From Prevotella sp. (GTDB lineage: Bacteria > Bacteroidota > Bacteroidia > Bacteroidales > Bacteroidaceae), in assembly GCA_022511045.1 (NCBI GenBank), contig JAFLSF010000008.1, positions 1,607-55,935 of the forward strand: a stretch of 54,329 bases of DNA, in the 5' to 3' direction. Positions 7,327 to 54,329 of this stretch are shown here, piece by piece (positions within the stretch are counted from its first letter, which is position 1; each line of letters begins with the position of its first letter). The notes under the pieces are model-generated. The model did no database searches, was not told the origin of the DNA, and worked only from the letters and a program-made list of their open reading frames with translations. A program made the position numbers and the translations under genes.

Positions 7327-7723
7327 GGGGTTGACTGGATTTGACAGCAGGCCGAGATGGTACGTAAGCATGCGGAGTGATGATTGTATACTCCATAATC
7401 TATTCAGTCGAACAATTAATTGGCGAAAACACTTACGCTCTCGCTGCCTAAACGAAGTACAGTAGTTTACTGGCTTTATCCCCTTACAAGGTAGGGGGAC
7501 GAGACATCGCTCCAAGGGTGTGGTTCCGAATCTGAGGATTAAGCGGTGCAGGAAAATCGGAAATAGTCATGCGGATACCTTGGCTACATGATGAAATTTT
7601 AGAGGATAAGGATATGATTGGTAGTTCGGGTCTTGTCATGTCACGAAAATGAAGTCCGAAATAAGCATGTAGAAAGCGTATGGTTTCCCTGTTTGGACGA
7701 GGGTTCGATTCCCTCCAGCTCCA
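7327..7723 (+). ncRNA. ssrA: tmRNA (transfer-messenger RNA)
   Basis: Rescues stalled ribosomes by acting as tRNA-Ala and then as mRNA for a degradation tag. The 5' end GGGGTTGACTGGATTTGACA pairs with the 3' acceptor strand CAGCTCC (7 bp, including G-U pairs), followed by discriminator A. GGGTTCGATTCCC forms the T arm. An internal reading frame encodes GENTYALAA and then TAA, fitting Bacteroidales tags that end ...YALAA. The 3' CCA is not encoded (the DNA reads ACAA after the stem), so the end would be added by nucleotidyltransferase. No clear terminator is seen before the Wzi-like gene, 61 bp downstream. The 5' end is set by acceptor stem pairing. Confidence 0.93.
7422..7451 (+). other. tmRNA tag-peptide reading frame
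   Basis: Codons for GENTYALAA followed by TAA inside ssrA; the alanine charged on the tmRNA would precede it, giving (A)GENTYALAA. The C-terminal ALAA is the usual ClpXP-type degron. Confidence 0.85.
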
Positions 7724-7784
7724 CAATCGATTCGCTTGTATATAGGAATGAAGATTAATATTGCAGCGCATTTATAACCATTGT

Positions 7785-51361: not shown

Positions 51362-53101
51362 CTAACTTTTCAGTCCTACGGTCTTGTTGAATACGAGATG
51401 TTCTGGAGTGGAGTCGAGATCAAGGGTGAAATAGCCGATGCGCTGGAACTGCAAGAAGTCGCCAGCCTGCTTCTCCTTCAAATACTGCTCTACATAACAG
51501 TTCTTGACAACCTTTAAGGATTCGGGATTCAGCAGTTCGCGGAAGTCCCGCTCGTCGGCAGAGGGATTCTCGATAGAGAACAGACGGTCGTACAAGCGAA
51601 CTTCAGCCTGTATGGCATCTTGGCAGTTTACCCAATGCAGCGTCTTTCCCTTGATTTTTCGGTCGGCACCAGGCAGTCCGCTACGTGTCTTTGGGTCGTA
51701 AGTGGCATAGATGGTTGTCACATTGCCCTCGGCATCTTTGTCGCACGGATGCTCCTCGTCACATTTTATTATATAGGCGTTCTTCAGACGCACTTCCTTG
51801 CCAGGAGCCAGACGCATAAACTTCTTCTCGGCCACCTCTTGGAAATCGCTACGCTCTATCCATAGTTCGCGGCTGAACGTGACCTTATGTGTGCCGTCGG
51901 CCTCGTTCTCGGGATTGTTCACCGCTTCCATTTCTTCAGTCTGTCCTTCGGGATAGTTGGTCAGCACAAGCCTTACGGGGTCAAGTACGGCGCTGACGCG
52001 GCAGGCTTTCTTATTCAGGTCCTCACGAACGCAAGACTCCAGCAGGGCGTGGTCGTTCAGCGCGTCAAACTTGGTGTAACCGATGGAGTCGACAAAGTTG
52101 CGGATGCTCTGCGACGAATAGCCGCGCCGACGCATACCGCACACGGTCGGCATACGGGGGTCGTCCCAGCCGCAGACCAGCCCCTCATCCACCAACGCTT
52201 TCAACTTACGTTTCGACATGACGGTGTAGGTCAGGTTCAGACGGTTGAACTCTATCTGGCGGGTTCCGTCGTAGTGGCTGAGAATATCGGGGTTAAAGTC
52301 CTTGCGAGTCTCCTCGTCCAATTCGCCCATATATTCGCGCAAAAGGTCTACAAACTTGTCGTACAACGGGCGGTGGGGCACAAACTCCAGCGTGCAGATG
52401 CTATGGGTAACACCCTCAAAATAGTCCGACTGTCCGTGAGCGAAGTCGTACATGGGGTAGGCGTGCCACTTGGTACCCGTGCGGTGGTGGGGAATATGGA
52501 TAATGCGATAGATGATGGGGTCGCGGAAGTGCATGTTTGGATTTGCCATATCTAACTTGGCGCGCAACACCATGCTTCCCTCTATGGCCTCAGGCGTGTT
52601 CATCTGGGCAAACAACTGCAAGTTCTCCTCCACAGGACGGTCGCGATATGGGCTGGGGCGTCCAGGCTGGGTAGGCGTACCCTTCTGCTCGGCAATCTGC
52701 TCAGAAGTCTGCTCGTCCACATAGGCCAGCCCTTTCTTAATAAGCCAGACGGCAAAGTCCCACAACTTCTCGAAATAGTCGGAGGCATAGTAAACATTCT
52801 CCCAATGGAAGCCCAGCCACTTGATGTCGCTCATAATATTCTCCACATACTCCGTATTCTCCTTAGTGGGATTCGTGTCGTCAAAGCGCAGGTTGCACGT
52901 TCCGCCAAACTTTTCAGCCGCACCGAAGTCCATGCAAATAGCCTTAGCGTGTCCAATGTGTATATATCCGTTGGGCTCTGGTGGGAAACGCGTCTGCAAT
53001 CGTCCGCCGTTCTTCCCTGCTTCCAAATCCTCCTTCACAAACTGCTCCACGAAGCTGAGGCTCTTTTTCTCCTCACCCGTCGTCATATTCTTCTCTTCCA
53101 T
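51362..53101 (-). CDS. glnS: Glutamine--tRNA ligase
   Basis: A class I aminoacyl-tRNA synthetase charging tRNA-Gln. The track starts at 53131; the ATG at 53101 (MEEKNMTTGEEK) is preferred because the earlier residues read like untranslated leader. The catalytic signatures are present: FPPEPNGYIHIGHAKAIC (HIGH) and a KMSKS-type YTVMSKRKL. TNYPEGQTEEMEAVNNPE and the following anticodon-binding barrels complete the enzyme at about 579 residues, a normal length. It begins the leftward glnS-TPR-dedA-manC-gmd run. Confidence 0.95.
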   Translation of the reverse strand: MEEKNMTTGEEKKSLSFVEQFVKEDLEAGKNGGRLQTRFPPEPNGYIHIGHAKAICMDFGAAEKFGGTCNLRFDDTNPTKENTEYVENIMSDIKWLGFHWENVYYASDYFEKLWDFAVWLIKKGLAYVDEQTSEQIAEQKGTPTQPGRPSPYRDRPVEENLQLFAQMNTPEAIEGSMVLRAKLDMANPNMHFRDPIIYRIIHIPHHRTGTKWHAYPMYDFAHGQSDYFEGVTHSICTLEFVPHRPLYDKFVDLLREYMGELDEETRKDFNPDILSHYDGTRQIEFNRLNLTYTVMSKRKLKALVDEGLVCGWDDPRMPTVCGMRRRGYSSQSIRNFVDSIGYTKFDALNDHALLESCVREDLNKKACRVSAVLDPVRLVLTNYPEGQTEEMEAVNNPENEADGTHKVTFSRELWIERSDFQEVAEKKFMRLAPGKEVRLKNAYIIKCDEEHPCDKDAEGNVTTIYATYDPKTRSGLPGADRKIKGKTLHWVNCQDAIQAEVRLYDRLFSIENPSADERDFRELLNPESLKVVKNCYVEQYLKEKQAGDFLQFQRIGYFTLDLDSTPEHLVFNKTVGLKS

Positions 53102-53136: not shown

Positions 53137-53207
53137 CAATAATTCCCCCAAAATTACCCCGCTTTCTGCACTTTTTTGCATCAAAATCGAAAAAAGTTGC
53201 AAAAAAG

Positions 53208-53239
53208 TTTGGTAGATTGATTTAAATCAATTACCTTTG
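53208..53239 (+). promoter_or_regulatory. Strong Bacteroidetes-type promoter, pointing to a candidate small RNA
   Basis: TTTG, a 20-bp spacer and TACCTTTG: a perfect match in both boxes and spacing. No protein-coding frame follows; an intrinsic terminator lies about 60-90 bp downstream. Confidence 0.82.
53216..53231. promoter_or_regulatory. CRP/FNR-like 16-bp perfect palindrome inside the promoter spacer
   Basis: ATTGATTTAAATCAAT is a perfect palindrome that contains TTGAT-N4-ATCAA, the classical FNR/CRP-family box. It exactly fills the space between the -33 and -7 boxes, so a bound regulator would be expected to block or remodel transcription. Confidence 0.65.
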
Positions 53240-53244
53240 CACCG

Positions 53245-53330
53245 TTATCCTGAATACAATCTTTTTACCTTAAAGACTAATACCTATTAGCGATAGATGC
53301 CTTTCATTGTGAAGTGAGGGGCATTTTTTG
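53245..53330 (+). ncRNA. Candidate small RNA of about 85 nt
   Basis: Bounded by a perfect promoter (53208-53239) and a strong intrinsic terminator (53297-53330), with no plausible protein frame between them. The first 50 nt contain short self-complementary stretches (TAATACCTATTA). The only frame near the 3' end is a six-codon ATG frame inside the terminator stem, not regarded as real. Target and function unknown; the start is estimated as about 6 nt after the -7 box. Confidence 0.55.
53297..53330 (+). terminator. Intrinsic terminator of the candidate small RNA
   Basis: A stem of about 12 bp (with three G-U pairs) formed by ATGCCTTTCATT and its partner ending GAGGGGCAT, then TTTTTTG. Confidence 0.8.
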
Positions 53331-53411
53331 TTCTCCTATACTCGTTGGCCGTGAGTCCTATACCCATCGTTTTTGAGTCCTATTCTCGCCGCCCGTGAGT
53401 CCTATTCAGCG
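53330..53411. repeat. 22-bp tandem repeat, four units (TGAGTCCTAT core)
   Basis: Units start at 53330, 53352, 53374 and 53396, exactly 22 bp apart; the last three begin TGAGTCCTAT and the first reads GTTCTCCTAT. The same core and period occur in the array at 46929-46994. A further TGAGTCCATT copy is at 53461, about three periods on. The array starts at the end of the small-RNA terminator. Confidence 0.75.
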
Positions 53412-53432
53412 TACATATATCTTCGGCAAAAA

Positions 53433-53626
53433 GTGACACAGAATACAGTATACATTTTTTTGAGTCCATTTCCTTATTTTCTGGAAAAACCTTATATACA
53501 ATATTCTATAATATATATATAATATATTATATATATATTATAGTGTTATAACATCCTCTATTCCTTACAAGATAGAGAGCGCTCATTTTCCGACTTCAAA
53601 AAACTGTATTCTGTATTCTGTGTCAC
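53433..53626. mobile_element. MITE-like inverted-repeat element, about 194 bp, no coding capacity
   Basis: The left end (GTGACACAGAATACAGTATA...) and right end (...GTATTCTGTGTCAC) are inverted copies over 31 bp with about three mismatches. The inside has no ORF and holds a 38-bp perfect AT palindrome close to the centre. A clear target-site duplication could not be found, so it may be a transposon remnant, a regulatory hairpin or a bidirectional terminator-like structure. Confidence 0.5.
53506..53543. repeat. Perfect 38-bp AT palindrome
   Basis: CTATAATATATATAT, AATATATT and ATATATATATTATAG form an uninterrupted palindrome of only A/T except the two end bases. It could extrude as a cruciform or form a long hairpin. 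It lies 5 bp off the centre of the surrounding 194-bp inverted repeat. Confidence 0.9.
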
Positions 53627-53753
53627 GTTCACAAAAGTACTCTCGCTCGAAAAAGTCCAAAATACTTTTGTTTTTCTCCTCGCTTATTCTTTCACCTCTG
53701 ACCTTTAGTCAAGGTAGGCTGCACCTCGAAAATAAAAATAAATACAGATTTAT

Positions 53754-53784
53754 TTTGTATTTCGCTCGGTTTGCACTACCTTTG
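53754..53784 (+). promoter_or_regulatory. Bacteroidetes-type promoter before a structured region
   Basis: TTTG, a 19-bp spacer and TACCTTTG, a perfect match. Downstream sequence is GC-rich and strongly self-complementary, without a credible protein frame. Confidence 0.75.
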
Positions 53785-53790
53785 TAGCCG

Positions 53791-53965
53791 ACTCTTGAAG
53801 TCCGAGCCAGACGGGGCGTGGCGGAAGCGTCTGCTCTTGCCCCAGTCAGACAAGGTTTGCGGCTACTCACGCCGTGTTGCGTAAAAGGTTCTGCCCTTGT
53901 TCGCGACAAAGTCGGGAGGGAGAGGGTCACTATATTAGGAAAGCGTTTACAAGCGCTTTGTTCTT
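53791..53965 (+). ncRNA. Candidate structured non-coding RNA, about 170 nt
   Basis: Downstream of the promoter at 53754-53784. Helices visible by eye: GACGGGGC paired with GCCCCAGTC (one bulged A), enclosing a hairpin GCGGA-AGCG-TCTGC; ACAAGG with CCTTGT, enclosing GCGGC with GCCGT; and GTTGCG with CGCGAC. AAAGCG-N8-CGCTTT followed by GTTCTTG near 53940-53965 could be the end. It is not a recognisable RNase P, SRP or tRNA sequence (none of their core motifs is present). The opposite-strand ORF 53709-54026 is an unlikely protein. Confidence 0.4.
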
Positions 53966-54329
53966 GACAAATAGGAATCTCGCAAATTTCTGATGTAGTC
54001 AGAGCATAGCAACGGTAGATGCTCATGGGATGTTATATAGGCTCCCTTGCATTTCATCCATACCCTTATTGTGTCTATATGACACATTCAAGAAAGTGGA
54101 GAAGTAAGTGTATAGGGATTATTATATAGACACATCGGCGTGGGCTTCGTGTAGTCCAAAACGCTATAAAATCAGTTGCTGAAGAATTGAATGTCCTTGT
54201 GCGTAAACAACTGAAAATAAGGAAAGAATCGGCAAAAACAGAATCTTAAATTATCCTAACAAGACCGCATTTAATTCGGGATGATTGGGAACAGTCTTGG
54301 GAAAATTTCCTAACTTTGTGCTGCAAATT
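53966..54329. other. Intergenic stretch with a palindrome and a possible remnant reading frame
   Basis: No confident gene. A palindrome TGTGTC-TATAT-GACACA lies at 54070-54086, and its left half returns inverted (ATATAGACACA) at 54124-54134. A frame from an ATG at 54079 reads 16 residues, meets TAG at 54127 and then continues open for 39 codons (VAEELNVLVRKQLKIRKE) to TAA at 54249, as in a degraded small gene. A -7-like TAACTTTG is at 54311-54318, without a clear -33 box, just before the window edge. Confidence 0.35.

Follow-up and report, generated by a model that had tools for sequence, protein, structure and literature searches.

A BTnc060-like small RNA of Prevotella with a conserved FNR-like palindrome in its promoter spacer

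Introduction

Several described systems bear on the locus studied here. The FopS RNAs are paralogous Bacteroides sRNAs that are bound by RbpB; a genome contains 12-15 copies, and the RNAs are about 65-70 nt long (PMC11697453). SnoA (BTnc284) is a nitrite-responsive RNA at the hcpR-hcp locus, where it lies antisense in the hcp promoter (PMC13370916). For the regulator HcpR2 the predicted regulon consists of hcp only in most Bacteroides; the motif predicted for HcpR2 in Bacteroides is GTAACnnnnGTTAC, and the same work quotes TTGATnnnnATCAA as the FNR/DNR consensus (PMC1274295). The -33/-7 promoter motif of Bacteroidota has been described as well (PMC7366714). BTnc060 is represented in Rfam by the family RF04184 and originates from the B. 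thetaiotaomicron transcriptome; no mention of it by name was found in the literature that we searched.

The DNA analyzed in this study, referred to as the window, is a stretch of 54,329 nucleotides from Prevotella sp. (GenBank assembly GCA_022511045.1, contig JAFLSF010000008.1). It contains, next to glnS, an sRNA gene with a palindrome between its promoter boxes. sRNAs of this kind are already known; what is new is the spacer operator, which occurs in some Prevotella lineages.

Results

A small RNA gene beside glnS

An initial annotation of this DNA had described a promoter with a perfect TTGAT-N4-ATCAA palindrome in its spacer, which leads, with no protein frame, to a terminator about 90 bp further on. 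This description holds up, and the anatomy of the locus is as follows.

53208..53211, + strand: -33 element TTTG of a Bacteroidota (sigma-ABfr type) promoter, from the sequence, with a 20-nt spacer to the -7 element
53212..53231: promoter spacer of 20 nt, from the sequence
53217..53230, no strand assigned: operator candidate TTGATTTAAATCAA, an FNR-like palindrome in the spacer, from the sequence and from 20 distinct loci of Prevotellaceae, L073 among them, that have it at the same position
53232..53239, + strand: -7 element TACCTTTG, from the sequence and the consensus across copies
53243..53329, + strand: small RNA of the BTnc060 (RF04184) type, class A (GAATACAATC), with a promoter-based predicted start; assignment from Rfam, relatives and the core alignment
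53243..53289, + strand: 5' region CGTTATCCTGAATACAATCTTTTTACCTTAAAGACTAATACCTATT, single-stranded and almost invariant, the presumed seed; consensus at the 90% level from 106 distinct sequences, with no pairing in the consensus fold
53295..53329, + strand: intrinsic terminator with a hairpin at 53295-53326 and a T-run to about 53329, from a terminator scan and compensatory stem changes in relatives
51362..53100, - strand: glnS (glutaminyl-tRNA synthetase by sequence), the divergent neighbour, from the ORF list, with its start ATG near 53100

The whole promoter (53208-53239) has the form TTTG-N20-TACCTTTG, and the palindrome in its spacer is symmetric across all 14 bases. A scan for E. coli-type sigma-70 promoters was blind to it because the promoter is of the Bacteroidota type. 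With the usual promoter spacing the transcript is predicted to start at about 53243 and, with an end at about 53329, to be about 87 nt long. The ORF list contains no frame of at least 60 aa that covers it.

The terminator scan is weak when taken alone, as shuffled sequence yields similar numbers. The stem, however, covaries among 106 distinct copies: both sides change while the pairs are kept, and one pair, for example, is GC in 50 copies and CG in 40. The same alignment and its consensus fold show hardly any variation and no pairing in the 5' region, CGTTATCCTGAAnACAATCTTTTTACCTTAAA...CTAATACCTATT. In folding calculations the 91-nt stretch with the RNA reached -22.7 kcal/mol (z -3.4), a value that was equalled by none of 200 shuffles. 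Furthermore, the conserved block among relatives starts at the RNA start predicted from the promoter. The near-invariant 5' core, the covarying terminator stem and the start of the conserved block together are strong evidence for an RNA gene, and we have very little doubt that the sRNA gene is real.

Relationship to BTnc060

When Rfam was searched with a cut-off on the E value, RF04184 (BTnc060, a Bacteroides sRNA) was hit at 53184-53327, with 57.8 bits and an E value of 5.3e-8. The match spans model positions 1-213, and its score is below the gathering score of 228.9. This family had escaped the initial annotation, which was right in proposing an sRNA gene. The same model gave 239.8 bits with B. 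finegoldii, which is above gathering, and 144.2 bits with Phocaeicola, which is below; altogether, the tested relatives in Prevotella, Phocaeicola, Parabacteroides and Bacteroides matched the family. The gathering threshold of RF04184 thus fits close Bacteroides copies. Since 57.8 bits falls under a threshold tuned to such copies, the locus RNA is best regarded, from its sequence, as a BTnc060-type homologue and not as a formal Rfam member. SnoA/BTnc284, BatR/BTnc167, GibS and FopS were considered as identities of the RNA and were ruled out by locus, length, copy number or name. At gathering level Rfam gave no match at the sRNA site; in the window only a tmRNA gene (7327-7726, E 1.8e-54) was found at this level.

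Conservation in relatives, which the initial annotation had named as a check, turned out to be wide. By DNA search, 116 of the 120 genomes sampled from the genus have a relative of the sRNA, as do 92 of the 121 from the family (24 of 30 genera), which places it among the most conserved small RNAs that we saw in this analysis across Bacteroidaceae. The host genome, which is 89% complete, shows one copy; across the family sample, in which at most 7 candidates were scored per genome, there are 1-4 matches per genome.

Two classes of copies and their neighbours

The copies fall into two classes. Class A (GAATACAATC) is mostly flanked by glnS, which is divergent, and by a convergent mltG-like gene, the latter named by sequence resemblance. 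Class B (GAAAACAATC) is found at other loci, often ahead of an rplU-like ORF. In many Prevotella genomes, rplU-like ORFs or other genes lie downstream of box-less class B paralogues (e.g. L087, L111, L120 and L128).

Because class B relatives are often located roughly 200-400 nt upstream of the rplU-like ORF, we considered that the RNA might be a cis-acting leader or attenuator and not a trans-acting sRNA. However, at the locus and its orthologs the next gene downstream is either missing or convergent. The window terminates at the contig end downstream of the sRNA, and no co-directional ORF of at least 60 aa starts between the terminator and this end. A leader is therefore very improbable. The RNA appears to stand alone, since its orthologs run into a convergent gene and not into a co-directional one.

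The DNA behind the sRNA is rich in repeats. A 28-nt direct repeat occurs in three copies at 22-nt spacing right after the terminator (53334-53405). It is followed by a MITE-like element (53430-53629) with 34-nt inverted repeats, which are 91% complementary and 132 nt apart, and with an AT-rich palindrome inside; this element has 54 matches in the genome, many of them at contig ends. A repeat of about 45 bp with the TACCTTTG promoter element (53740-53790) is present in about 17 copies in the genome and in many relatives of the genus. Downstream of this repeat promoter lies the stretch 53777-54144, which occurs a second time (92%) at G000:C66:105-475; its fold surpasses that of most shuffles (z -2.65), and it is possibly a structured RNA. 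A phage origin was rejected, as there was no phage match. A plasmid origin was also rejected, because the matches in the plasmid collection include long non-mobilizable, chromosomal-looking records.

Distribution and conservation of the promoter box

We scanned 84,980 genomes with the pattern TTTG-N5-TTGAT-N4-ATCAA-N-TA-N2-TTTG, which combines promoter and box. Of its 24 matches, 21 fall in Bacteroidales; the remaining 3 are in unrelated groups and serve as an estimate of the chance level. Where a family or genus is given, the Bacteroidales matches belong to Prevotellaceae, with the exception of one Bacteroidaceae record; the rest are titled Bacteroidales only. Behind 19 of the 21 promoters lies the sRNA, counting L073 with its diverged core. 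The promoters at L062 and L060 do not lead to the sRNA: at L060 an unrelated ORF follows, and at L062 (66-97), in a Bacteroidaceae genome, the exact promoter and box run straight into an ORF resembling that of ribosomal protein L21 (rplU). glnS is the neighbour of most box-bearing copies too.

Conservation of the arms is partly ascertained, as the scan required exact arms. The centre of the box was not part of the search pattern, and it is nonetheless conserved as WTAA (of 20 loci, T/A in 19, T in 20, A in 19 and A in 18). To the left of the box, by contrast, four of five spacer bases vary in these loci. In a sample drawn by similarity, using the RNA and its promoter in a DNA search, there are six copies with the box (L001-L005 and L007); in L006, L009 and L106 the box is partial. 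Among class A copies the box score is bimodal, with 24 perfect boxes, 2 at a score of 9, 3 at 8 and the remainder at 7 or less. No box was found in 51 class B copies, which include second copies inside box-bearing genomes, and none in nine Bacteroidaceae relatives. When placed on a tree of glnS, the box is spread over deep branches and at least three gains or losses are needed. The spacer is 20 nt long in all 19 box copies and in most boxless ones.

We then asked how far a palindrome kept by descent only, as a feature of base composition or DNA shape in a strong promoter with no protein bound to it, could explain these data. A-rich tracts in mid-spacer are common in boxless copies too, and 2.8% of shuffles of the locus spacer contained a 5-4-5 palindrome of some kind. 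The exact TTGAT-N4-ATCAA, on the other hand, arose at a rate of only about 5e-5 from shuffled spacers of boxless class A copies. The comparative evidence for the box is much stronger than these shuffle statistics: arms and position are identical in about 20 diverged loci in which the flanking spacer bases vary, and the box is either present or absent in a bimodal manner. A palindrome without a protein is hence hardly credible. Judged from the alignments, the box is a real, lineage-restricted trait of some Prevotella lineages, that is, a conserved cis element and not a product of chance, and it very probably functions as an operator.

Repression or activation

The box is centred at about -19.5 from the predicted start and spans about -26 to -13; this is not the position of an activator, near -41.5 or farther upstream. 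Activators normally sit upstream of the promoter. As the box is centred inside the promoter, and the spacing is a normal 20 nt in box and boxless copies, the regulator probably acts as a repressor.

The same sRNA and operator could also be subject to activation, if the promoter is remodelled by a MerR-type spacer binder or by a CRP/FNR activator of an unusual kind. Palindromes located between the boxes of a promoter are the sites of MerR-type activators, and the genome encodes one MerR-family protein. However, MerR promoters have longer spacers, while the spacers here are ordinary with and without the box. Moreover, no activator is needed because the promoter boxes are near consensus. Activation is on this evidence improbable.

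Candidate regulators

The arms of the box agree exactly with the FNR/DNR consensus, and the initial annotation had taken the box for a switch thrown by a redox, nitrosative or nutrient regulator of the CRP/FNR family. This reading is partly supported: the consensus match and three regulators of the CRP/FNR type with cNMP-binding domains encoded in the genome (P0001, P0002 and P0003) speak for the family. A link to redox, nitrosative or nutrient signals is hypothetical. The expectation that the same box precedes other genes was not confirmed: TTGAT-N4-ATCAA occurs at 13 further sites in the genome, mostly inside ORFs and never with an embedded promoter, so that no regulon is visible.

The gene of P0001 adjoins lepA, and the recognition helix of the protein carries PETLSR. 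FNR proteins have the recognition pattern ExxSR, which the P0001 residues seem to fit; the pattern was not seen in P0002 and P0003. P0001 gave no match to Pfam HTH_Crp_2, and the closest PDB structure to P0002 is 1zyb. On reading the three sequences we found no N-terminal cysteine cluster, with P0001 having two cysteines, and oxygen sensing through an Fe-S FNR is accordingly considered unlikely. P0001 and P0002 are present in nearly all genomes of the genus with or without the box; co-occurrence therefore gave no signal and singles out neither of them. The sRNA promoter contains no match to GTAACnnnnGTTAC, and HcpR is disfavoured as the regulator, since HcpR2 of Bacteroides is predicted to use this motif.

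A further reading keeps the sRNA and the repressor site and assigns the latter to a regulator from another family than CRP/FNR, so that the likeness to FNR would be coincidental. The four central bases are strongly conserved, whereas a classical FNR box leaves them free; the genome is without a visible FNR regulon, and the published HcpR motif of Bacteroides is different (PMC1274295). This reading has to explain, on the other hand, why the arms are exactly those of TTGATnnnnATCAA (PMC1274295) and why a regulator with FNR-like recognition residues is encoded. We regard it as possible but rather unlikely, and give membership of the regulator in the CRP/FNR family an even chance.

Discussion

The explanation that we favour overall, with a probability of roughly 0.5, is that a BTnc060-type sRNA is repressed via its spacer operator by a regulator that is probably of the CRP/FNR family. 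Based on the family, the structure and the conservation of the operator, we propose the following model. The locus would encode a stand-alone, trans-acting sRNA of the BTnc060 (RF04184) family of about 87 nt, in which a single-stranded, near-invariant 5' region of about 46 nt is the likely seed for pairing with mRNAs and is followed by the intrinsic terminator. A strong housekeeping promoter of the Bacteroidota type presumably drives transcription. Some Prevotella lineages, among them the one studied here, have the spacer of this promoter filled by the putative operator TTGAT-WTAA-ATCAA. A dimeric regulator on the operator would cover DNA needed by RNA polymerase and so repress the sRNA; when the regulator leaves its active state, the sRNA would be released to act on mRNAs. 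The likeliest class is CRP/FNR, and among the three candidates P0001, beside lepA, has the FNR-like ExxSR. A search of six genomes for targets complementary to the core returned, beyond the sRNA genes, scattered matches with 2 mismatches and none that was convincing.

A more tentative idea concerns the family as a whole. Copies of the sRNA in Bacteroidaceae that share a seed may have been split by promoter evolution, with class A under a CRP/FNR-type repressor and class B free of the operator; in the host species, where one copy was found, the whole function of the RNA would then be under that repressor. We know of no earlier FNR-box-controlled sRNA in Bacteroidota. The operator, present in some lineages and missing in others, offers a direct handle on the signal that controls the sRNA, and a comparison of box-bearing with boxless copies would show the rewiring of a shared sRNA.

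With HcpR2 the proposed system shares control by the CRP/FNR family through a 5-4-5 palindrome, although the predicted motif there is GTAACnnnnGTTAC and not TTGATnnnnATCAA as here. SnoA/BTnc284 resembles the scenario of the initial annotation, being an RNA of Bacteroidota that is linked both to nitrosative stress and to a regulator of the CRP/FNR family; the RNA described here, in contrast, adjoins glnS and thus has another locus and another relation to its gene. Like FopS, it is multicopy in its clade and combines a single-stranded 5' stretch and a terminator with a canonical sigma-ABfr promoter. It differs from FopS in copy number, with 1-4 BTnc060-type matches per genome (at most 7 candidates scored) and one in the host genome as compared to 12-15, and probably in length, which is predicted at about 87 nt as compared to about 65-70 nt. 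In an end-to-end alignment with BTnc060, the core RNA, the position of the Bacteroidota promoter and the terminator correspond. Compared to BTnc060, the locus RNA is without the upstream part of the 213-nt model, and its neighbour is glnS, whereas phoU and riboflavin synthase are the neighbours in B. finegoldii. The operator, absent from the nine Bacteroidaceae relatives, is present here.
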